A DNA stretch of 64,000 bases from an uncultured Bryobacteraceae bacterium. Lineage in GTDB: Bacteria > Acidobacteriota > Terriglobia > Bryobacterales > Bryobacteraceae. The translations under genes were made by a program, and so were the position numbers. Below the pieces are notes generated by a model that ran no database searches, had not been told where the DNA came from, and saw only the letters and a program-made list of their open reading frames with translations. Below, piece by piece: positions 1 to 11,404 of this stretch. The stretch's first letter is position 1. The number at the start of each line of letters is the position of its first letter. The stretch covers positions 1 through 64,000 of the forward strand of contig CALKXJ010000026.1 of the NCBI GenBank assembly GCA_938003835.1, read 5' to 3'.

Positions 1-459
1 TCATCGGCCCCGCCTCTTCCACGCCGCCAGCAGGAAGCCTTGCGTGAAATAACACGCCGCCTGGCGGTTGCCGCAGAACACCACCGGCACGCCGTAGTCG
101 AGCAGGATTGAAAGCGTCGAGCCCACAACAGCCGCCGGCCGCGTTTCGCCGCGATAGCGTTTGCCGAGTACGTCCAGAAGTCCGGCCTCGACCACCACGC
201 AGGCGGCGCGATAGCGTGAGAGTTTTAGCAGTTCCTCCCGGAAGCGCCGCCGCCGGTGGATCACCGTCGAGACGAAGTCATCCAACGTTTTCCGCTCCAC
301 GGCTACCTGGTCTTCGAGCCCGGCGATGGAGTAGTCCCCGGCCTTGAGCGCCCGCCGCACGGCGCCGATGACCCGGGGATCGAACGAGTAGGGTTCCTGT
401 TCGCGCGAGTCGATGACAATGGTGGGCCGCGCCGCGTTAGAACGGCACAAGGGCGTCAT
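1..459 (-). CDS. ERCC4-domain (XPF-type) nuclease
   Basis: A 152-residue protein made almost entirely of an ERCC4 nuclease fold, which cuts branched or flap DNA. The family signature is visible: an early IDSREQ motif, then GDY, then VERKTLDDF, which matches the GDx(n)ERKxxxD active site of XPF/Mus81/Hef. There is no helicase or helix-hairpin-helix domain, as in small phage and plasmid versions. The frame opens further upstream to 534, but the ATG at 459 (MTPLCRS) is preferred because it overlaps the upstream DUF669 gene by only 23 bp and leaves out a low-complexity Arg/Ser stretch. The stop codon is the first triplet of the window. It is the last visible gene of the leftward element operon. 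A role in element recombination or repair is inferred. Confidence 0.8.
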   Translation of the reverse strand: MTPLCRSNAARPTIVIDSREQEPYSFDPRVIGAVRRALKAGDYSIAGLEDQVAVERKTLDDFVSTVIHRRRRFREELLKLSRYRAACVVVEAGLLDVLGKRYRGETRPAAVVGSTLSILLDYGVPVVFCGNRQAACYFTQGFLLAAWKRRGR

Positions 460-895
460 CGGCCTCCCGCCGGAACTTGGCTGCGCTCTGGCTCGTCTCG
501 ATGCGGCGGTTGAAGTAGATGTTCTCGCTGTCACCCCTGGTGCGCTTGGTCACTTCGAGCTTCACGTCAAGCAGCCGGTGGAGATGCTTCGGCAGGTCCG
601 ACAGCCGCTCGAGATCGAGCCCGCACAGGTGCAGGTCCGTTTTGACGTATTTGAGCGTGTTCTGCGTGATGACGCTGTTGCGCCACATCAGGCGGTTGGC
701 GAAGCGGGGCGCGAGAATCCGCAGCGTCCACTTGATCATCGGGTTGCCCGAGGACTGCGCCTCGGTCAACTCGACCTTTTCGACCGTGACCTGATACTTG
801 CCGTCGGGCACGCTCTCGAAATCGCCGCGCTCCTCGGGCTGCTCGGCCCGGAAGCCGTCATCGAACTGCGAAAGATCAATCGAATGTCTGCTCAT
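437..895 (-). CDS. DUF669 phage-type protein (probable ssDNA-binding accessory)
   Basis: A 152-residue protein matching DUF669, a family found almost only in phages and integrative elements next to Sak4-like or RecA-like ATPases. The family pattern is seen in the N-terminal half: a VPDGKYQVTVEKVE strand, then GNPMIKWTLRIL, then a run with W, N and a TLKYVKTDL helix. No catalytic motif is visible. Partners of this type are often assumed to bind single-stranded DNA like an SSB; here that is inference from position. The gene begins 24 bp after the Sak4-like ATPase gene and its 3' end overlaps the ERCC4 nuclease gene, so the three are probably translated from one message. Confidence 0.7.
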   Translation of the reverse strand: MSRHSIDLSQFDDGFRAEQPEERGDFESVPDGKYQVTVEKVELTEAQSSGNPMIKWTLRILAPRFANRLMWRNSVITQNTLKYVKTDLHLCGLDLERLSDLPKHLHRLLDVKLEVTKRTRGDSENIYFNRRIETSQSAAKFRREADDALVPF

Positions 896-919
896 GCTGT
901 TGTCTCCTGTTTGGAAGAT

Positions 920-1666
920 TTACTTGGCCTGCTTGGGACCAGCCTGCGGTTTCGGCGGCGCGCCGGCCGCCGCGTGGAAGGCTTCGAGGAACTTGCGGTA
1001 GTCGAGGTCGATCGTTTCGGGCAGCCGCCCGGTGCGGTCGCCGGCCTCGTAGTAGAGGTTCGGTTTGGTGCGGATCACGCGCCGGATGATCTGCTCGCCG
1101 TCCGCGCCGGCCGACACGTCGAGATCGCAGTACAGGACCATGTCGGCCATGCCCAGCACGATCTTGCGCGCCTTTTCGGGCAGCGTCGGCACGATGCGCG
1201 TGTACTTGCCCGTGCGCGTTTCGACCTCGATTTCCTTGGCGTGCGAGATCAGGTACAGCCCGTAGGGCAGGAAGGCGAGCTTGGTCAGCACGCGCTGGAA
1301 CTCGTTGTTGACGATCGCATAGCCCTTGCCGTAGGCCAGGTCGGACTCGTGCTCGACCTTGTACTTGCGCAGGATGTACTCGGTGCAGAACTTGTAGGCG
1401 TTGTCGATCGTGTCGATGACGACCGTCTTGAACGGATGCTTGCCCTCGCCGATCTCGGCGCAGGCGGCCAGCAAATCCTCCCAGGAAAGGATGGGGACCT
1501 GGAAGACCTCGAGGGCGTTCAAGCCCGGCTCGGTGGCGAAGAAGACCGCGCCATCGGCTTGAGCGCACGTGGCCGTTTCTCCGATTTTTGTTTGCCCATA
1601 CCAAAGCACGGTGAGATCCGACAGGCTCGGCTTGGGCGGGGTTTTCGTCGCGGGAAGAATGGGCAT
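920..1666 (-). CDS. AAA_24 / Sak4-like ATPase with altered Walker A
   Basis: A 248-residue protein of the phage AAA_24 family (RecA-fold, Sak4-like single-strand annealing ATPases). Residues 24-31 read GQTKIGET where a P-loop should end GK[ST], so the conserved lysine is replaced by glutamate (E30). The rest of the fold looks intact: a FFATEPGLN segment near residue 42 and a Walker B-like TVVIDTID at 81-88. The start at 1666 is chosen because AAGGAG lies just upstream; a longer frame to 1792 overlaps the nuclease gene and looks like read-through. It sits between the PD-(D/E)XK nuclease and DUF669 genes. The substitution predicts weak or absent nucleotide binding unless another residue compensates. 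Confidence 0.75.
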   Translation of the reverse strand: MPILPATKTPPKPSLSDLTVLWYGQTKIGETATCAQADGAVFFATEPGLNALEVFQVPILSWEDLLAACAEIGEGKHPFKTVVIDTIDNAYKFCTEYILRKYKVEHESDLAYGKGYAIVNNEFQRVLTKLAFLPYGLYLISHAKEIEVETRTGKYTRIVPTLPEKARKIVLGMADMVLYCDLDVSAGADGEQIIRRVIRTKPNLYYEAGDRTGRLPETIDLDYRKFLEAFHAAAGAPPKPQAGPKQAK

Positions 1667-1683
1667 CAAAGTCTCCTTGGGTT

Positions 1684-2700
1684 TCAGAAAGCGGGTTCGG
1701 GCGCGCCGGCCGCGAGAACGCGCAGTTCCTCGTTGGGCTCGACGCGCTGGTAGAAGTTTTCGATCACGTTGGGATTGCCGTTCGACCGGCACAGGGCGAA
1801 GTACGGGCAGGGCCGCTGGTAGTTGAAGCAGAACGAGGTGTTCTGGTAGAAGACCCCGCGCCGGCGGGCGTCGAGGAAGGCCTGCGTCAACTCCCAGAGT
1901 TCGCTGCGCAGCACGTCGAAGCGGTCGCGCGAGAGATAGAGCCGCTCGCGGTGGAACATCGCCGGATCCGCGTACTTCTCCGCCAGCCGCCGCTGGAAGT
2001 CTTCGTCGGACTCCGGCTCGCGCCGCCGCGCCGTGGTGCGGCCGGTCTTGGACTTGGCGAGCAGGTCCGCGCGGCGCGCCCCAAACTCTTCTTCCGTCTC
2101 GCCCTTGGACTGTTGGAGCCGCGCCTTGACGAGGACGTTGTAGAGGATTCCGGTGATGGGGATGCCCCTCGTCTGCTCGACGTAGTGGGCGTAGAGCGTG
2201 ATCTGGAAGTCGGTCCAGAGCCGTTCGAGGTAGTCGGAATCAATCTGCGAAGCAGTCTTATGCTCAAGAATGAAATACTCGCCGTCGATGCGAACAATCC
2301 CGTCGACCTTGCCCGCCAGGCGGAAACTGCGCGACGAAGCGCCCGTGGCCGGATTCACGATCGGGCCTTCGAAGACGTGCTCGAGCGCCACAACCTCGAA
2401 CTCCTCTTCGGCGTAGCGGTCCGCATAGGCCCGCATCATGGCGGTGGCCAGATGCCAGTCGCGCTTCTGATCCTCATCCTGCGCGCGAGCCGCGCAGCGG
2501 CGGTCAATGAGATCGAGAACACTGCTGAGGTCCCGCTCCCGATGCCATATCTCCAGGCACTCGTGAATCAGCGAGCCGAAGTGCAGGTTGCGGTCCCGCT
2601 CGATCGGAATCAGCTGCTGGAGGTAACGCAGCTCAGCCGCCTTGCGGCAGTTCCGAAACTGGTTCCACATGGAGTAGGTGGTCACCATCGTGTCGCTCAT
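1684..2700 (-). CDS. RecB/Cas4-like PD-(D/E)XK nuclease with putative Fe-S cluster
   Basis: A 338-residue nuclease of the PDDEXK_1 (RecB/AddB/Cas4) type. Visible motifs are GSLIHECLE with H46, the metal-binding D133 in AGKVDGIV, and the E146-x-K148 pair in YFILEHKTA. Four cysteines, C18 near the N-terminus and C291, C298 and C304 near the C-terminus, have the one-plus-three spacing of the 4Fe-4S staple in AddB and Cas4. An insertion rich in Arg/Glu (about 195-245) is unlike Cas4. No cas genes or repeats are nearby, so it is most likely the element's recombination exonuclease, paired with the Sak4-like ATPase downstream (17 bp gap). It overlaps the ParB-like gene upstream by 4 bp. Confidence 0.85.
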   Translation of the reverse strand: MSDTMVTTYSMWNQFRNCRKAAELRYLQQLIPIERDRNLHFGSLIHECLEIWHRERDLSSVLDLIDRRCAARAQDEDQKRDWHLATAMMRAYADRYAEEEFEVVALEHVFEGPIVNPATGASSRSFRLAGKVDGIVRIDGEYFILEHKTASQIDSDYLERLWTDFQITLYAHYVEQTRGIPITGILYNVLVKARLQQSKGETEEEFGARRADLLAKSKTGRTTARRREPESDEDFQRRLAEKYADPAMFHRERLYLSRDRFDVLRSELWELTQAFLDARRRGVFYQNTSFCFNYQRPCPYFALCRSNGNPNVIENFYQRVEPNEELRVLAAGAPEPAF

Positions 2701-3590
2701 GCTGGCTCTCCGATGTAGGGGAACTTCTCGGGGGACGGCCCGTCGGTTTTCCAGAAGAGCTTCCGTAGGGGCCGGTTCCCCCGGTAGTAGGTCCAGGCCT
2801 TAAAGAACAGCGCCACGACATCAAGCTGAGGCAGCTTGGTTTTCGCTTGACGGTCCGTGAGCAGCCTTTCGCGCAGGTGGTAGGCGGGATTGTCCGGGCT
2901 CAGCGCCAGGCCGTTCGCGAGTTCGGAGAAGAAGCGCTGTGCGCTCGTGCGGTCTTGCGCGGCGAACTGGTAATAGCAGAAGCCCACGACTCTAGGCGCC
3001 GCGATCTTCTTGCCCAACAGGCGCGCCTGGACCACGGCTTCGTCAAGCCCGGGCAGCGAGCGGGCCGCCTCGACCACCTCAGTCTTGGTCGGCTGGCACC
3101 GAGGATCGTTCATCCTCTCGATGCCATGCCGGCGGTGCAAGACAATGAGACCTGCGACGGCGCACGCACAGGACGCGTTGTGGAAGCCCTTGATCGCGGC
3201 GATATGCCCCGCTGTCCGTGGCCTGTGAATGTCGATCGTGAGGATCGCTTCCGGCGGCAAACCAAAGATGACGTCGTTCTCGAAGGAGACACCGGAATCG
3301 AGGCAGGCCCTCAACCGGTGCTGGCCATCGATTAGGTTGCCATCCGTGTCGAAACGGATAGGCGCGCCGTCGTACTGCCAGCGCCCTTCCAGCATGTCCA
3401 AGCCGTAGGCGATGACCGTGTTCTCGCTGATCGGCCTGTTCCGCACATTGCGCTCAAGCCACTGCCGGGCCAGTTCGGGCGTGATCAGCATCGTCACCCG
3501 TCTGGCTTCCCGGCAGGCCGGGATCGCCGGAGGGTTGTTGGACAACTCCAGCGCACTTTGCTTCGGCAGCACAGAGTTCGAGGAATTCAT
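2697..3590 (-). CDS. ParB-like DNA-binding protein of phage/plasmid type
   Basis: A 297-residue protein whose first half resembles ParB-related regulators of mobile elements: a VTMLITPELARQWLERN opening, RPISENTV, LEGRWQYDGAPIRFD and a DGQHRL motif that matches the conserved GxxR/GQHR box of ParB-like N-terminal domains. The second half is helical and not recognised. The ATG at 3590 is chosen because GGAG lies seven bases upstream; this makes the gene overlap the 3' end of the preceding ParB-like gene by 137 bp, which is unusual. A shorter form from the ATG at 3491 would cut the overlap to 38 bp but has no good ribosome site. Function (partition, replication control or regulation) is inferred. 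Confidence 0.6.
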   Translation of the reverse strand: MNSSNSVLPKQSALELSNNPPAIPACREARRVTMLITPELARQWLERNVRNRPISENTVIAYGLDMLEGRWQYDGAPIRFDTDGNLIDGQHRLRACLDSGVSFENDVIFGLPPEAILTIDIHRPRTAGHIAAIKGFHNASCACAVAGLIVLHRRHGIERMNDPRCQPTKTEVVEAARSLPGLDEAVVQARLLGKKIAAPRVVGFCYYQFAAQDRTSAQRFFSELANGLALSPDNPAYHLRERLLTDRQAKTKLPQLDVVALFFKAWTYYRGNRPLRKLFWKTDGPSPEKFPYIGEPA

Positions 3591-4317
3591 TGGCTTTCTC
3601 CAGGTTGGAAATAAGTTGTTCACGATCCGGTCTGGCGGCAAGCAGTCCGGCAAGTTCAACGGGTGAGGACTCGCACCCCGCAATTGCATCCACGGCCCGC
3701 AGGATCGCCTCAAGCGGACCGAAGCCCTGTAGCTCTACATGGCCACCTGCCGCGGGATCCTGAGCTGGACGCTTCCGGCGGCGGGCATTCTTTTTCGCGA
3801 TGTTGCTGGTGTCTTGTTGGTACGACTTGCCCAGCCGGGATACGGTGCGCGCACCCATCTGAGGAATTTCCTCAGATGCCTGAAGCTGGCGCCGCCAGTT
3901 GCTGACGGTCTTCTGGTCGACGCCGACGTGCCGGGCGATCTGGCGGTCGCTCAACGTGACGCCTCGGCTGTGCGTCAGTGCGGCTTTGATCGCCCGTTGC
4001 TTATCCTGCGTGGTCCGGCGCAGACCATTGTTCCGGTTGGCGCTGAAGCTGTACCACTGGGCGTCTTCGAGCGTGCCCTGTTGGATGTCGGCCTGAACCG
4101 CGTCAAAGCCTGCGGCGTAGGCGGCCTTGACGCGGTGGAAGCCATCCGCCAGCCAATAATTCTCGCCGTCGTAGAAGACCACGACCGCGGGGAACTTCAT
4201 CCCCGCGCCCATCGCCTCGGCGTAGTCCTCAATCGCCTCGAAATCGAGCACGGCCCGCGGCTGTGTGCCACCGTCGAGGCGGATGTTCGTAATTGGGAGC
4301 GAATCACCACGCTTCAT
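3454..4317 (-). CDS. ParB N-terminal domain protein with HTH
   Basis: A 287-residue protein with a ParB/sulfiredoxin-like N-terminal domain: IRLDGGTQPRAVLD, then YWLADGFHRVKAAYAAG, the box that holds the GxxRxxA-type nucleotide-binding motif. A helix-turn-helix follows at about residues 120-150 (LSDRQIARHVGVDQKTVSNWRRQ). The C-terminal half is basic then Pro/Gly-rich and unrecognised. Proteins of this architecture occur on phages and integrative elements and regulate or partition them. The start ATG overlaps the stop of the sigma-like gene (ATGA), so translation is probably coupled. No ParA ATPase gene is visible beside it, which argues against a standard ParABS system within this window. Confidence 0.8.
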   Translation of the reverse strand: MKRGDSLPITNIRLDGGTQPRAVLDFEAIEDYAEAMGAGMKFPAVVVFYDGENYWLADGFHRVKAAYAAGFDAVQADIQQGTLEDAQWYSFSANRNNGLRRTTQDKQRAIKAALTHSRGVTLSDRQIARHVGVDQKTVSNWRRQLQASEEIPQMGARTVSRLGKSYQQDTSNIAKKNARRRKRPAQDPAAGGHVELQGFGPLEAILRAVDAIAGCESSPVELAGLLAARPDREQLISNLEKANEFLELCAAEAKCAGVVQQPSGDPGLPGSQTGDDADHARTGPAVA

Positions 4318-4823
4318 CGCGCACCCCCGTTTCGCCGAAGACCTTCAGGTCTTACGCCAGCTTGCTCAAACGCCGCGCGGATCTCGCCGATCATCTGATA
4401 CACCCGTGAACGGGACTTCCCGATGGCGCGCGCCACCTCGCGCGGCGTGCGATCCAGGAGCAGCTCCGCGACTAGGCGCAGGTGATCAGGAAGGCGCGCC
4501 ACCGTCGCCGCGACATCCAGACGGAGGTCGTGATCCACGTCGGCATGCGGCCGTGGTGGCAGGTCGGTAACGACACCGCACACGGCCCTGCGCCGTTGCG
4601 CCGCCAACCGGGCGGCCCGGTTCCGCACGACTCCGAACATGAAGCCGCGCGGCTCGCCGCGCTCGGAATCGAACAGCGGCAGACGTTCCAGGTAGTCGAG
4701 GAGGAGATCCTGACGGAGATCCTCCCAGTCGTCCCGCGTGAATCCAGCACATGCCACCAACTGACTGGCCCGGATCTCGGCCTGCTGGATGACAAAGGGA
4801 TCGACGGCGGCAGCAGCGCTCAT
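4314..4823 (-). CDS. Sigma-70-like (ECF-type) factor carried by the element
   Basis: A 169-residue protein with the two-domain layout of short sigma factors. A region-2-like helix block lies at about residues 30-70 (DDWEDLRQDLLLDYLERL, then FMFGVVRNRA), and a region-4-like helix-turn-helix at about 110-150 (LPDHLRLVAELLLDRTPREVARAIGKSRSRVYQMI). It would direct RNA polymerase to element promoters, or act as a DNA-binding regulator without core binding. It is coupled to both neighbours by 4-bp overlaps (stop/start ATGA), so it is co-expressed with the ParB-like protein. Sequence conservation in region 2 is modest, so the sigma assignment is good but not certain. Confidence 0.7.
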   Translation of the reverse strand: MSAAAAVDPFVIQQAEIRASQLVACAGFTRDDWEDLRQDLLLDYLERLPLFDSERGEPRGFMFGVVRNRAARLAAQRRRAVCGVVTDLPPRPHADVDHDLRLDVAATVARLPDHLRLVAELLLDRTPREVARAIGKSRSRVYQMIGEIRAAFEQAGVRPEGLRRNGGAR

Positions 4824-5149
4824 GACTCCACCTCCGCAGGCATCGCTTCGATCACCATCCGGAAGGGCAGGCCGTACCGGACCTCGATGCGCTCCACCGT
4901 GCCATCCTTCAGCCGCCCGACCTGTTCGATGAACCGCTCGACCTGGCTCCGCAGTTCGAACCGGTCGAGCCGGCTTTCTGGCCGCGGACCGTCGGCGGCA
5001 TCCAGTTTCAGTTCGAGGAAAACACGCGGCTCCGGGCTGAATACGGGCTCGCCGTTGCGGATTTCCAGCTCCTCGACGCGGCCGAAGTTGATCGTCTGGA
5101 ACAGGCGCAGCAGGCGCCGCCAGGATGGAGAGAGAGCGGTGAACTGCAT
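4820..5149 (-). CDS. Small element protein, unknown function
   Basis: A 109-residue soluble protein I cannot assign to a function. Its start has the segment LFQTINFGRVEELEIRNGEPVF, a pattern I associate with small proteins of mobile elements, followed by an Asp/Arg-rich half. There is no signal peptide, membrane segment or catalytic motif. The stop overlaps the start of the sigma-like gene by 4 bp, and the gene begins 3 bp after the upstream hypothetical gene, so it belongs to the same message. Coding is supported by this tight packing and by codon use like that of its neighbours. Confidence 0.6.
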   Translation of the reverse strand: MQFTALSPSWRRLLRLFQTINFGRVEELEIRNGEPVFSPEPRVFLELKLDAADGPRPESRLDRFELRSQVERFIEQVGRLKDGTVERIEVRYGLPFRMVIEAMPAEVES

Positions 5150-5152
5150 GGC

Positions 5153-5485
5153 CTACTCCCCCATCCCGGTGCGGTTGCGGACGAGGAACTCGTCCACGGC
5201 GGCGTGAATGCGCGGCGGGCGCGTCCCACTTGGTTCATACTCCTCGCGCGGTGCGAGTCCTTTGAGTTCGCGGAGCAGCCGGACGCGGATGCGGTCCAGC
5301 CGCTTCATGACCGTCCACACCAGATCGTCATCGAGCTGGTGCAGGGCGGCGGCGCTGCCGATGACGAGCGCCACGTCGGCCAGCGCTTCGCGGACGAGGG
5401 ATTCCACGTTGACAGGAGGGCCGGCGTTGGGCGGTGCGGCCGCCGGCGGGACCGTTGGGTTGGTAGCAGAGGGTAGCGTACTCAT
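5153..5485 (-). CDS. Hypothetical protein, first gene of the leftward operon
   Basis: A 110-residue protein of unknown function. The first 30 residues are Pro/Ala-rich and probably disordered; residues 30-80 form predicted helices (VESLVREALADVALVIGSAAALHQLDDD, then KRLDRIRVRLLRELKG). No family is recognised. It is the first gene of the element operon: its ATG at 5485 lies only 20 bp from an 18-bp inverted repeat at 5505-5522, with GGAG about 13 bases upstream of the start. This places the operon promoter in 5486-5645. Confidence 0.55.
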   Translation of the reverse strand: MSTLPSATNPTVPPAAAPPNAGPPVNVESLVREALADVALVIGSAAALHQLDDDLVWTVMKRLDRIRVRLLRELKGLAPREEYEPSGTRPPRIHAAVDEFLVRNRTGMGE

Positions 5486-5504: not shown

Positions 5505-5522
5505 CCGTGGAAAATTCCACGG
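5505..5522. promoter_or_regulatory. Perfect 8-2-8 inverted repeat, putative operator
   Basis: CCGTGGAAAATTCCACGG: two perfect 8-bp arms around AA, ending 20 bp before the first ATG of the leftward element operon. A near-identical copy lies 107 bp away at 5612-5629. The position between start codon and promoter region suggests a repressor operator, or a centromere-like site for one of the ParB-like proteins encoded downstream. The sequence is not the canonical parS. The binding protein is unknown. Confidence 0.6.
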
Positions 5523-5611: not shown

Positions 5612-5629
5612 CCGCGGAAAATTCCACGG
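5612..5629. promoter_or_regulatory. Second copy of the inverted repeat, one mismatch
   Basis: CCGCGGAAAATTCCACGG differs from the site at 5505-5522 by one base (T to C in the left arm). The two sites are 107 bp start to start, close to ten helical turns, which would put them on the same DNA face. An isolated TTTTCCGTC half-site is visible at 5531-5539 between them. The whole 5486-5645 gap is AT-richer than the flanking genes and is the likely promoter region of the operon; I could not fix a convincing -35/-10 pair. Confidence 0.55.
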
Positions 5630-5645: not shown

Positions 5646-6083
5646 CTATCGACGGCGGTCGGAGGCACAGTCGAAGGCCGCGATCCAGGTCCCTGTCGCC
5701 TCGATGAACTGGAGAGGATCGCCAGCCAGGCCGGTCCGGTCACGAAGCCACTTGTTGAGCTTCAGAACGGCCAGATCATCCCCGGCCCGCACGAGCCGCC
5801 CGCCCGAACGCAGCAGTTCAATGAAGGCCTGGCCTTCTGGCAGAAGCCGGTCCACGTCCCGCGCAAGCCCCAGCTCCACCAGGGAATAGTCCTGCCAGAG
5901 CGTTTCCTGATGTTCGGCTGGGCCGGTCTCTGCATCCCGGGCGCGTCGAATCTGATTCGCTTTGACGCCCACGGCAATGCGGCCATCGCGGCGCTCCATC
6001 CACTCAAGGCTCATCTTGTGTGAGAATCCGCACCCGCCTTCAGGCTCATCTTGCATGAGACAAAACTCGCCATTCAACGGCAT
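5646..6083 (-). CDS. Hypothetical protein of the element
   Basis: A 145-residue protein without a recognised family. The first 40 residues contain three cysteines and several methionines; the middle is helical and charged (KANQIRRARDAETG, then WQDYSLVELGLARDVDRLLPEGQAFIELL); the end is WIAAFDCASDRRR. The frame runs open to 6470, but that part is antisense to the toxin-antitoxin pair, so I place the start at the ATG at 6083, which follows AAGGGGG and leaves a 36-bp divergent gap to the antitoxin gene. A shorter start at 6056 is possible. The gene is separated from the leftward operon by the two inverted repeats. Confidence 0.5.
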   Translation of the reverse strand: MPLNGEFCLMQDEPEGGCGFSHKMSLEWMERRDGRIAVGVKANQIRRARDAETGPAEHQETLWQDYSLVELGLARDVDRLLPEGQAFIELLRSGGRLVRAGDDLAVLKLNKWLRDRTGLAGDPLQFIEATGTWIAAFDCASDRRR

Positions 6084-6119: not shown

Positions 6120-6389
6120 ATGAGAATTACGACGGTTCGGGAGTTTCGCGACAACGCCACCGGGCTGCTGCGCTCGAAGGCTCCCATCCTGGTCACACGC
6201 CGGGGGCGGTTGGCTGGGGTGTTCTTCCCCTGGCCGGAAGAAAGCCTGCCCGTGGAGTTCAAGAAGGAACTCTTCTCCGTTCTCTCTGCCGAGTTGGGCC
6301 GCGAACTCAGGAAGCGGAAGATCAGCGAGGAGGAGGTCCAGGCGGATTTCGAGAGTTGGCGAAAGGCCCGTCGTGCGCCTCGTGGCTGA
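6120..6389 (+). CDS. Phd/YefM-like antitoxin
   Basis: An 89-residue protein starting MRITTVREFRDNATGLLRSK, the pattern of the Phd/YefM (prevent-host-death) antitoxin fold: a short strand, then a helix with the conserved R/N region, then PILVTRRGRLAGVFFP, the strand pair that ends the DNA-binding domain. The charged C-terminal helix is the part expected to bind and neutralise the toxin. It overlaps the PIN toxin gene by 17 bp, the usual type II toxin-antitoxin layout with the antitoxin first. GAGGTGG lies upstream of the ATG. Such pairs normally repress their own promoter, which here would be in the 36-bp gap to the divergent hypothetical gene. Confidence 0.8.
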   Translation: MRITTVREFRDNATGLLRSKAPILVTRRGRLAGVFFPWPEESLPVEFKKELFSVLSAELGRELRKRKISEEEVQADFESWRKARRAPRG

Positions 6390-6783
6390 TGCCAACGTCC
6401 TGCTCTCGGCTGTGATCGGCGGGCAGGCCAAGACCGTGCTCGAACATCCCGGCGTGGAAAGCGCGGTCACGACTGCGGTGACGTTCGAGGCAGTTCAGGA
6501 GTACGCCGGGCACCTGGCGCAGAAGAAACGGCTGGACCTCGAACTCGTTCTGTTTGCTGTAGCGACGCTGCCCGTCGCCATCGTACCGAGAGAGCAATAT
6601 AAGGATGCCCTGCCGCGAGCTCGAAGGAAGATCGGGAAGCGCGATCCGGACGACGTCGAGATCCTGGCGCTGGCGATGCACTTGGGATGGCCTTTGTGGT
6701 CGAACGACAACGATTTTGAGGTCGCCGGGATCGAGTGGTACACCACCGCCGAATTACTCCAGCGCCTCCGGCTCGCCGAATAG
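6373..6783 (+). CDS. PIN-domain toxin (VapC-like ribonuclease)
   Basis: A 136-residue PIN domain, expected to be a metal-dependent ribonuclease inhibited by the antitoxin encoded just upstream. The acidic active-site residues are visible: D in ADANVLLSA near the start, E in TFEAVQEYAGH, D in DPDDVEILALAMHLG, and the final WSNDNDFE. The start is a GTG at 6373 inside the antitoxin gene. The last 30 bp run into the 3' end of the HTH gene coming from the opposite strand. The pair probably stabilises the element. The subfamily (VapC or the COG1569-type putative toxins) is not certain. Confidence 0.85.
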   Translation: MRLVADANVLLSAVIGGQAKTVLEHPGVESAVTTAVTFEAVQEYAGHLAQKKRLDLELVLFAVATLPVAIVPREQYKDALPRARRKIGKRDPDDVEILALAMHLGWPLWSNDNDFEVAGIEWYTTAELLQRLRLAE

Positions 6784-7172
6784 TTCTCGCGAGGCCCTGC
6801 GCTGATCCTCCCAAAGAGGCATCTTGGCGATTCTCCGCAGCGCCCCTTCGCTGAACGGCGCGCGCCCGGATGGCGGCAAGCGCAGCACGGCCTTTTGGAT
6901 ATCCGGCGCGAGCCAGACGAGCATCATGCTCTGGCTGATCCGCTCGCGGCTCACGCATCCCAGGCGCGCCAGGTCCGCGTAGTCGCGCACCTCGCCGCGG
7001 TTGATCATCTCTTGAAACTGAAGCGCCAGCGCCAGCACCTTCGCCGCACGCGGGTAGCGCCCGGTCCGCCGCACGGCCCTCACCGTGGGTTCCGTTACCT
7101 GCTCCGCGCGTTGGATCTCCCGCACGGTGGGCCTCAGCTTGAACCTCACCTCGAACAGACTGCTCCCCACCA

Positions 7173-7173
<1 letters not shown>
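6754..7173 (-). CDS. HTH protein of the serine-recombinase module
   Basis: A 139-residue basic protein. The first part (SLFEVRFKLRPTVREIQRAEQV) is followed by helices and a helix-turn-helix at about residues 75-105 (DYADLARLGCVSRERISQSMMLVWL), similar to KorB/ParB-type DNA-binding helices. It lies directly after a serine recombinase gene: the ATG at 7173 shares one base with the recombinase stop (TAATG) and has AAGGAAA upstream, so translation is coupled; I therefore reject the in-frame start at 7197. A role as a recombination directionality or regulatory factor is inferred from position. Its 3' end overlaps the convergent PIN toxin gene by 30 bp. Confidence 0.65.
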
Positions 7174-8718
<1,545 letters not shown>

Positions 8719-8732
<14 letters not shown>

Positions 8733-9231
8733 TCTTCTTCTCCGTCAGGCCAAAGAACAGCAGGCCATTCCACTTGGCGCCCGTGATCTCCTGGGCGATC
8801 GCGCTCAGCGATGTGTACCGCCGGTCGTCATAGGCGAAGCGCCCGTCGTCGAGGACCTGCACGACGTGGGTCCTGCCCTTGTATTGCTTCACGATCACCC
8901 CGCCGGGCATGGGCAGCCGTGGATCGCGATCGGGCTGAATCGTCGCAACCGTTGTCTGCTCAGGTGGGAGGCCGGCGCGGCGCTTGCTCGCGTTGGTGGT
9001 CACGCGGTTCCGCAGCGGCGAGTCCCGCGCGATGGCGCGTGCCAGTTCGCGGACCTCGTCAGGCTGCCAGCCCTCTTCTTCGGCCTGCAATCGCCAGGCG
9101 ATCTTGCGGAACAGGAACTGCCGATGCGCGCTCACCGGCTCCTTGCCGAAGACCTTGCGATGCTCTTCGCGCAAGGCCGGCACGTTCATCGCGGCGAGGG
9201 TGGCGATCCGATCTCGGAGCGTCTTCTTCAT
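8719..9231 (-). CDS. DUF2924 protein of the recombinase module
   Basis: A 170-residue protein matching DUF2924, a family of unknown biochemical function found next to large serine recombinases. The family pattern is seen as HRKVFGKEPVSAHRQFLFRKIAWRLQ near the N-terminus, and a C-terminal segment PGGVIVKQYKGRTHVVQVLDDG, then YTSLSAIAQEITGAKWNGLLFFGL. It overlaps the recombinase gene by 14 bp and the small upstream gene by 4 bp (ATGA). The conserved pairing suggests an accessory role in the recombinase reaction, such as directionality; this is inference. Confidence 0.85.
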
Positions 9232-10066: not shown

Positions 10067-11404
10067 TCACGACTCGCCGGCAGGCCAGCCGCCGGCCAGC
10101 GCCTTGAACAACAGCACGGACTGCACCTGCGCCGAGGTCCGGGCTTCGGCGATCGCCTGCTCCAACTCCAGCACCTGCCGTTGCGCATCCAGGACACCCA
10201 GGAAATCGGCCACGCCGGCTTGATAGACATCTTCGGATAACTTAAGTGCCGATTGCGCTGCGGCAAGGGCGTCTGTCAGTCTCACCAGGCGGACTTGCTC
10301 CGTGCGGTAAGCCGCGATGGCATCTTCGGCCTCCTGGAAGGCAGCGAGGAGTTCGTTCTCGTAGCTGATCCTGGCCTGTTCCAGACGCGCATCGCTGGCG
10401 TCAATGTTCGCGCGCAGTCGGCCGCCAGTGAAGACCGGCAGAACCAGTTGCGGCCCGATGCCGAAGAAATTACCGCCGCCGAGGCTCAAGCCCGCTACAT
10501 TGGTAGCCTGGCGTCCCGCCAGCCCGGTAAGGATGACTCTGGGATATAGTTCCGACCGCGCGGCCTTCGATCGCGCCATCGCGGAGAGAATTCGCGCCTG
10601 CGCCGCGCGCACATCCGGACGCCGCAGCAGGAGCGCCGAATCGATTCCCTCACCAAGATTGGGAATCCTCCATTGAGCCGGCGGCGGCGGCAACGGGCTT
10701 CTCGCTACATCGCGATCAGACAGCAATACAGCGAGCCGGTTCAACTGTGTCTGCTTCCGGAATTCCATGCGCGGAATCTCTGCCGCGAGAGAGGACAGCG
10801 CAGCCGACTGCCGGTCCACGTCGAGTTGGGTGGCCAGCCCGGCGCTCGCCCGCTGCCGGGTCAGCTCGAGCAGATCCGCTTGCCGGACGCGATTGCGTTC
10901 GAGAATCTCCAGTTGCTGTTCCGCCCCGCGGTAGTCGAAGTAGGTCCGGGCCACTTCGGCGGCGACAATCAACCGGACCTCGTTAGCGGCCTCCTCCTGG
11001 GCCAGGGTATCGGAGCGGGTGGCGTCCAACTGTTTTATGTTCGGCCCCCAAAAACTCAGTTCCCAGCGCATGTCGGAGCTGCCGGCGATGAGGCCGGTTT
11101 CAAACGGGCTGATGAGGCTCGCACCGCCCCCGGGGCCTGATTCCGGAATCCGGATGATGCCGTTCTGAAATCCGCCACGCAACTGTTGAGCGGAAGCGTT
11201 AGCATTGATGGATGGAGCCAGGGCGGACTTGGACTGCCGTGTGAGGGCGCGGGCCTCAGCAACGCGAGCCAGTGCGCTCTTGACGTCCAGATTCTGCTGG
11301 GTCGCGCGCTCGACCAGGTCCGTCAGGACAGGATCACCGTAGGACTGCCACCAGGAGGCTGGGTCCGCCACAAAGGTGCAAAGCAGGAGGATGGAGAACA
11401 TCAT
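10067..11404 (-). CDS. Outer-membrane efflux factor (TolC/NodT family)
   Basis: A 445-residue outer-membrane channel of the TolC/NodT type, the exit duct of tripartite exporters. The protein begins with a short hydrophobic signal (MMFSILLLCTFVADP) and continues with WWQSYGDPVLTDLVERATQQNLDVKSA, the opening of the NodT family, then two long repeats of helical hairpins with the FDYRGAEQQLEI and FQEAEDAIAAYRTEQ regions. There is no cysteine lipobox, which most NodT proteins have. The gene starts 3 bp after the membrane-fusion gene. It works with the ABC permease, ATPase and fusion protein of the same operon. Confidence 0.9.
   Translation of the reverse strand: MMFSILLLCTFVADPASWWQSYGDPVLTDLVERATQQNLDVKSALARVAEARALTRQSKSALAPSINANASAQQLRGGFQNGIIRIPESGPGGGASLISPFETGLIAGSSDMRWELSFWGPNIKQLDATRSDTLAQEEAANEVRLIVAAEVARTYFDYRGAEQQLEILERNRVRQADLLELTRQRASAGLATQLDVDRQSAALSSLAAEIPRMEFRKQTQLNRLAVLLSDRDVARSPLPPPPAQWRIPNLGEGIDSALLLRRPDVRAAQARILSAMARSKAARSELYPRVILTGLAGRQATNVAGLSLGGGNFFGIGPQLVLPVFTGGRLRANIDASDARLEQARISYENELLAAFQEAEDAIAAYRTEQVRLVRLTDALAAAQSALKLSEDVYQAGVADFLGVLDAQRQVLELEQAIAEARTSAQVQSVLLFKALAGGWPAGES

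Follow-up and report, generated by a model that had tools for sequence, protein, structure and literature searches.

A probable early operon of a temperate phage at a contig edge of a Bryobacteraceae genome, with a sigma factor as core gene and a fixed-spacing palindrome pair upstream

What kind of element carries a compact set of nine genes for nucleases, DNA annealing, ParB-like proteins and a sigma-like factor? The question is raised by the left end of contig CALKXJ010000026.1 (C26) from an uncultured Bryobacteraceae bacterium (assembly GCA_938003835.1). The window analysed here comprises the first 64,000 nucleotides of this contig, and nine minus-strand open reading frames (ORFs) fill its positions 1-5485. 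The initial annotation of this DNA had noted a resemblance to a phage recombination module, which is correct, and its gene calls are good. It had also suggested a separate system without a name. This is not supported; phage structural genes follow the module in its relatives. The nine genes form, with high confidence, the early (recombination and replication) operon of a tailed phage, a temperate one that has integrated into the chromosome of a Bryobacteraceae-type acidobacterium. The phage is a member of the Caudoviricetes, and its host most likely belongs to the Bryobacteraceae (Acidobacteriota).

The gene order reads: integrase block, operator-like palindrome pair, g9, g8, a sigma factor of the extracytoplasmic function (ECF) type, an optional ParB cassette, exonuclease, Sak4, DUF669 and ERCC4. 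The features of the window are as follows, with E-values of the best matches.

1-534, minus strand: ERCC4-type nuclease (Pfam ERCC4, 6e-17; phrog_3490, 1e-22); start uncertain (534 or further in)
437-895, minus strand: DUF669 protein, phage single-strand binding protein (SSB) type (Pfam, 2e-17; phrog_7778, 2e-13)
920-1666, minus strand: Sak4-like annealing ATPase (Pfam AAA_24, 3e-44; phrog_124, 2e-47)
1684-2700, minus strand: PD-(D/E)XK exonuclease, Fe-S type, with four conserved Cys residues (Pfam, 1e-20; phrog_1218, 7e-52)
2697-3590, minus strand: ParB2, a ParB-like phrog_5931 protein (3e-63), accessory cassette; best fold matches are ParB proteins, and weak
3454-4317, minus strand: ParB1, ParB-like DNA-binding protein, accessory cassette (phrog_1033, 2e-22; profile against solved ParB structures, 0.001)
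4314-4823, minus strand: ECF-type sigma factor, core gene (profile against CnrH, 1e-11; fold; found in 32 of the 33 loci that have g8)
4820-5149, minus strand: g8, a conserved protein without known function (33 of 38 viral loci)
5153-5485, minus strand: g9, first gene of the operon, function unknown (12 of 38 viral loci)
5505-5522, no strand: proximal operator-like palindrome, centre 28 bp before g9
5612-5629, no strand: distal operator-like palindrome, centre 135 bp before g9 and 107 bp from the proximal one
5646-6015, minus strand: remnant of a protein of about 485 residues in relatives (reg485), C-terminal ~125 residues; homology to reg485 of viral locus L003 ends at 6015
6754-7197, minus strand: phrog_14161 protein beside the recombinase (3e-13)
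7173-8732, minus strand: large serine recombinase, the integrase (Resolvase, 6e-37; Recombinase; zinc ribbon)
8719-9231, minus strand: DUF2924 gene (Pfam DUF2924, 1e-38)

The first base of the window is the start of C26, and the stop codon of the ERCC4 gene occupies bases 1-3. The initial annotation had found no helicase or capsid gene in view. This holds for the window, but it reflects the contig edge and not the element, as C26 begins at window base 1. Its labels for the Sak4-like ATPase, DUF669 protein and ERCC4 nuclease are borne out by the Pfam and PHROGs matches. The genes had been described as packed with overlaps of 4 bp or more, which is true for five of the eight junctions. The other three, g9/g8, exonuclease/Sak4 and Sak4/DUF669, have gaps of 3-24 bp (with the Sak4 start taken as the ATG at 1666). 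On the other side of the locus, the serine recombinase and DUF2924 genes are followed by a junction to host-type genes (efflux protein, HlyD, ABC permease and secretin) that start at 10067. The end of the prophage is located between the DUF2924 gene and these host genes.

When viral contigs are searched with the Sak4 protein, 38 loci are found, 34 of which have the order exonuclease, Sak4, DUF669, ERCC4. Three of the exceptions start inside Sak4 (L008, L033 and L037). The fourth, L039, is a distant relative, in which tblastn finds neither DUF669 nor ERCC4 and a profile finds DUF669. The conservation of this order goes beyond chance. The closest relatives, up to 96% identical at the amino-acid level, are viral contigs with the same module. 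In three of them (L003, L004 and L005), counterparts of the DUF2924, serine recombinase and phrog_14161 genes of the window are present too, at 61-91% identity. In both relatives scanned beyond ERCC4 (L003 and L018), a RecD2-type helicase gene comes next and then a primase-helicase gene, VapE-like in L003 and of the DnaG/Toprim type in L018.

The L003 contig continues into genes for the small and large terminase subunits (TerS; TerL, 2e-250), portal, head-protease protein and minor tail protein. A search for TerL covered 23 of the 38 viral records, mostly the longer ones, and 13 genome assemblies. The phrog_15 TerL is present in 20 of the 23 viral records, in every case on the strand of the module and 9-18 kb downstream, as calculated from the coordinates. 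It is also present in 10 of the 13 assemblies. Of the three viral records without a match, G008 and G009 end ~13 and ~14 kb beyond Sak4 on its downstream side, and G034 has another terminase. In the nearly complete genome of Bryobacterales bacterium F-183, the only assembly in which the position was checked, TerL is found 12.8 kb downstream, again on the strand of the module. The initial annotation had stated that a full set of phage structural genes to the left would make this an ordinary prophage early region, and this is what the relatives have.

Structural genes are also present in the genome of the window itself. TerL is encoded on contigs C30 and C34, with 93-96% identity to that of L003, and contigs C30, C34, C35 and C38 align consecutively with the late region of L003. 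Exact 141-bp overlaps connect the ends of C30 and C34 and those of C34 and C35, which is typical of neighbours in an assembly graph. Genes for TerS, TerL, the portal, a head-protease protein and a minor tail protein are located on C30, C34 and C35, and these phage contigs also code for a fusion of ParB and a methyltransferase. They are separate pieces and are not joined to the window.

The copy in the window is probably a decaying prophage, judging from four lesions. Its Sak4 has a Glu residue in place of the Walker A lysine; about 2.4 kb of L003 is missing from the window at reg485, and as a result only the last ~125 residues of this protein remain; the terL gene on C34 has an in-frame stop; and a primase-helicase piece at the left end of contig C10 is divided between two frames. 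Both Sak4 and reg485 are found intact among the relatives. Alternatively, the assembly mixes variants, and the exact end overlaps are compatible with both explanations. Several further features were observed in this genome. The broken primase-helicase piece (L043, positions 197-2555 of C10) is followed by a transposase-like gene, as judged by eye, and beyond it by genes that have no counterparts in the phage loci, possibly the end of a prophage remnant. A 3-kb contig (L063, C32) has a polymerase/primase-type gene that by eye resembles one in L073, perhaps from a second phage in the same genome or sample. Inside the prophage, at 6120-6783 on the plus strand, opposite to the phage genes, are an antitoxin-like small ORF (by eye) and a PIN_2-domain gene; the DNA of this pair is also found in L003.

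The known hosts are mostly acidobacterial. A search of named genomes with a Sak4 profile gives 35 loci, 29 of which are in Acidobacteriota by record title (with Sulfidibacter counted in), mostly Bryobacterales, Bryobacteraceae and Solibacter. The remaining six are metagenome-assembled genomes of other phyla. Among 61 genomes around that of the window, the module is present in six of the 37 from the same family, one of the six being a fragment, and in none of the 24 others. This patchy distribution fits a temperate phage.

All viral loci with g8 except L035 have the sigma gene as well, 32 of 33 in total. The protein of the window taken alone stays under the Pfam and NCBIfam cut-offs (Sigma70_r2, 23.2 bits against a cut-off of 24), and matches phrog_1740 at 1e-11. 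On the other hand, a profile built from this protein and 32 relatives aligns with the structures of the ECF sigma factors CnrH (1e-11) and SigE (7e-10) across regions 2 to 4. Sigma70_r2 is found in 27 of the 33 members at E ≤ 0.05, and sequence identity to the window copy is 24-85% within the set. The AlphaFold model (mean predicted local distance difference test score, pLDDT, 83; predicted template modelling score 0.48) has ECF sigma factors as its top fold matches (E 4e-4). The TM-scores of these matches reach only about 0.3, a low value that probably stems from the free placement of the two domains in the model. The profile covers both region 2 and region 4, and the sigma-like factor of the initial annotation becomes a sigma factor of the ECF type, encoded by one of the core genes of the phage operon. 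By analogy with other phages, it would most likely switch the polymerase to later phage genes. A candidate late motif, taken from late-region repeats of two phages and the DNA upstream of terS, was rejected, as the block occurs only in L007, L019, L032, L100 and L102. In these five, three GTCAAC-type repeats ~10 bp apart are seen by eye upstream of terS, a possible second regulatory site of this subgroup.

The ParB-like genes have a different standing. The slot between the sigma and exonuclease genes is empty in 18 of 32 loci, where the two genes overlap by 4 bp, and it has an insert of 0.9-2.2 kb in the other 14. The inserts were assigned to cassette types by reading. ParB1 with ParB2, as in the window, is found in L004, L032 and L034, and ParB1 with a protein of 346-352 residues carrying a DGLQR motif in L010, L015, L017, L031 and L038. 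Another ParB occurs with a DGLQR-motif protein in L014 and with a smaller protein in L003, L005, L009 and L011, and L016 has ParB1 alone. Pfam ParB_N is confirmed in the insert of L003 and is below the cut-off in that of L009. Given this variety, the pair of ParB-like genes amounts to one form of an exchangeable insert, presumably an accessory one that binds DNA. The initial annotation had seen a special combination in the sigma factor and two ParB-like proteins; the sigma factor is indeed core, but the double ParB is optional.

The two ParB-like proteins themselves are not equally secure. ParB1 can be assigned by phrog_1033, with Pfam ParB_N below its cut-off. For ParB2, no Pfam or NCBIfam match is found, phrog_5931 is a family of unknown function, and the profile matches no solved structure at E ≤ 1. 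The four best PDB matches of its model (pLDDT 83.6) are all ParB, although none reaches E 0.001. Kinship between the two is unsupported, with an hhalign probability of 1% for the profile comparison. Relatives of ParB2 occur in 89 phage records (phrog_5931, E ≤ 1e-5). Among 11 hand-picked neighbourhoods of phrog_5931 genes, a recombination nuclease is annotated within ~1.5 kb in four (Jolie2, PFR1, CaiB and MED4-117), and a ParB_N neighbour is confirmed by Pfam only in phiAH14a. Fusion genes of ParB-N and a DNA methyltransferase are located between the replication and terminase genes in L061 (3211-4470, minus strand) and L003 (from 19876); the L003 phage seems by eye to carry two of them.

The exonuclease had been described as a Cas4/AddB-like nuclease with a likely Fe-S cluster, and the PD-(D/E)XK core and four Cys residues support this. 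Among 36 aligned proteins, Cys18 is kept in 35, and Cys291, Cys298 and Cys304 in all 36, so that a Cas4/AddB-type nuclease with a predicted Fe-S cluster is supported. The exonuclease of L011 has 716 residues, which suggests another insert. The match of Sak4 to its family of RecA-like ATPases is strong. The Walker A lysine, replaced in the window, is present in every one of the 33 relatives whose site can be read and is free of an intein. In L008, L009 and L011, Sak4 is split at this motif by an intein-like insert, and the RecD2 protein of L003 bears a LAGLIDADG/intein domain.

Two 18-bp palindromes are located upstream of g9, with their centres 107 bp apart. Self-similar palindrome pairs with spacings of 25-300 bp were sought blindly in 76 sequences (1.25 Mb); 17 pairs were found, 10 of them with a spacing of exactly 107 bp. 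Random sequence from a dinucleotide model (15 rounds) gives 1.1 pairs per round and none at 107 bp. Upstream regions were compared for the window and 22 other loci with g9, and 16 of these 23 have their best pair at a spacing of exactly 107 bp. Only two of 440 shuffled upstream regions have their best pair at this spacing, and the top score from shuffling, 25, is beaten by 12 of the 16. Close kin are present among these regions (the window with L003-L005; L010, L017 and L111, which share one operator), and by our own grouping there are about eight independent cases of the 107-bp pair.

The letters of the palindromes vary by group, with GTGGAATTTTCCAC, GGTTACATGTAACC, GGGTGAAAATTCACCC and GTGACAAGTCAC among the versions seen, and identity falls to 36% for the DNA that separates the two sites. 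Both the sites and the intervening sequences diverge, and therefore spacing and symmetry are kept and sequence is not. A distance of 107 bp corresponds to ~10.2 helical turns. Sites at the same places have a best spacing of 106 bp in L092, the pair of L102 is at 119 bp, and L020-L022 have TGTGA..TCACA-type sites ~118 bp apart by eye; 118-119 bp is about one turn more. These spacings suggest a repression loop.

The first candidates for the operator-binding protein are reg485 and the g9 protein itself. reg485 shares loci with g9, being found by its C-terminal part in 12 of 12 viral loci (as short pieces only in L010 and L015) and by tblastn in 10 of 10 genome loci; in one further match, L090, g9 is not found. 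None of the five members scanned matches a PHROG family, and only chance-level Pfam matches are seen for ten members. A winged-helix domain in reg485 appears likely by eye; it is unsupported by Pfam and PDB profile searches and is not claimed here.

Two other explanations of the element as a whole are very improbable. Under one, the locus is a stand-alone mobile or defence island, a nuclease, annealing, ParB and sigma system independent of any phage. The richness in nucleases, the own regulator and serine recombinase, the adjoining toxin-antitoxin-like pair and the lack of any structural gene on C26 would agree with it. However, it is largely refuted already by the terminase genes downstream of the module in the viral records and by the structural genes in the same genome. 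Under the other, the ParB-like pair is a partition module that segregates a plasmid-like prophage, and the palindromes serve as its parS sites. The two ParB-like genes, the match of ParB1 to solved ParB structures and the palindromes upstream could be read in this way, but ParA is absent among the genes scanned, an integrase is present, and the ParB genes are missing from the 18 loci with an empty slot. It was rejected as the primary explanation on the first and last of these grounds. A role of the palindromes as parS sites was rejected as well, since the palindrome does not track the type of ParB: one palindrome occurs with different cassettes (L003 and L005 compared to the window and L004), and the same one in L029 with an empty slot. 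The assignment to a prophage early operon does meet some opposition within the genome of the window. RecD2 is not found in the contigs of this genome, where the smallest of the 12 contigs examined (C27-C38) has 3001 bases and shorter pieces may be outside the set, and the primase-helicase is seen only as the split piece, so that the prophage is not observed as one unit. Moreover, binning may have brought in the phage contigs from another copy or strain.

Two further alternatives concern the regulation of the operon. It is unlikely that the palindrome pair is the site of a host regulator, such as a LexA-type SOS box, rather than a phage-repressor operator. SOS control is common in prophages, and no phage protein is singled out as the binder. 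On the other hand, a host box would be expected to stay alike, whereas the sites differ strongly between related phages, and the pair goes with g9 and reg485. We consider it similarly improbable that the sigma-like gene encodes an ECF-derived DNA-binding or anti-host protein, which sequesters RNA polymerase instead of working as a sigma factor. The divergence of the protein, the failure of the window copy to reach the Pfam and NCBIfam cut-offs and the scarcity of Pfam matches to region 4 (r4_2; 3 of 33 members) fit such a protein. Its profile, however, aligns with ECF sigma factors from region 2 to region 4, and its gene is conserved in nearly all loci.

As part of the main explanation, a mechanism of control can be inferred. 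In the lysogen, a regulator would bind both palindromes, about ten helical turns apart, loop the DNA and shut off the operon. After induction, the exonuclease, Sak4, SSB, helicase and primase would be made, and they would recombine and replicate the phage DNA. The ECF sigma factor would then redirect host RNA polymerase to later phage promoters, as in phiEco32-like phages. A broader proposal, possible at best, is that acidobacterial temperate phages share an undescribed lysis-lysogeny switch composed of the 107-bp operator pair, reg485 as a looping regulator of a new family, and a late handover by the sigma factor. In this switch, the operator sequence would have been exchanged repeatedly, with its spacing fixed.

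Several observations weigh against the proposed control of the operon. No late promoter motif common to all groups is found upstream of terS, and region 4 of the sigma factor is rarely recognised by Pfam, as noted above. The 107-bp pair is lacking in 7 of the 23 upstream regions, namely L092 and L102 with their other spacings and L020, L021, L022, L081 and L082, in which it is not seen. The pairs of L010, L017, L089 and L111 score only 24, which shuffled controls reach too. In addition, operator similarity was correlated with protein similarity, and the Spearman coefficients are 0.10 for g9 (the lowest), 0.43 for the serine recombinase, 0.54 for g8, 0.58 for the sigma factor, 0.60 for reg485, 0.61 for Sak4 and 0.63 for the PD-(D/E)XK exonuclease. 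This comparison singles out no protein as the binder of the palindromes.

By identity, the locus is an ordinary prophage early region of a little-known phage group, seen through a contig edge. It is distinguished by the ECF sigma factor as a core gene, the exchangeable ParB slot and the operator pair, which is newly found here. Acidobacteria are common soil bacteria, and their phages are little studied; the module is a marker for a phage group with members in six of the 37 genomes from a single family. It also supplies regulatory parts: the ECF sigma factor, a core component of a temperate phage's early operon, can be tested directly. The operator pair, with its fixed spacing and changing sequence, offers a natural series for the co-change of repressor and operator and can likewise be tested directly.

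No paper describing this operon was found in the open-licence literature searched; the search did not cover the operator pair. A Bryobacterales-specific provirus group reported in 2025 (PMC11924767, group (i)) consists of Caudoviricetes proviruses of the same host order as the window phage. The main text of that report does not mention Sak4, sigma, ParB or exonuclease. Proteins of the ParB2 family, phrog_5931, are found in other phages, those of actinobacteria, rhizobia and vibrios.

For the annealing genes, phage HK620 offers a parallel, as its Sak4 gene adjoins an SSB gene, as in the window operon, and its SSB stimulates annealing by Sak4 in the account given there (PMC5928155). In the window, in contrast, the neighbours of this pair are a PD-(D/E)XK exonuclease of the Fe-S type and an ERCC4 nuclease, and the set is located behind a sigma factor; moreover, the SSB is of the DUF669 type and Sak4 is without its Walker A lysine. 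For the sigma factor, SU10 and phiEco32 encode their own as well, named an ECF sigma factor in a table of the paper on SU10, which describes the phiEco32 factor as serving middle and late promoters (PMC4281155). SU10, however, is a podovirus without the gene order of the window, where the sigma gene is a core gene in the recombination operon of a temperate phage. SigN of the Bacillus subtilis plasmid pBS32 is likewise a sigma factor of a mobile element, and it acts after DNA damage. It differs in being plasmid-borne, in another gene arrangement, with LexA control among the topics of that study (PMC6751061).

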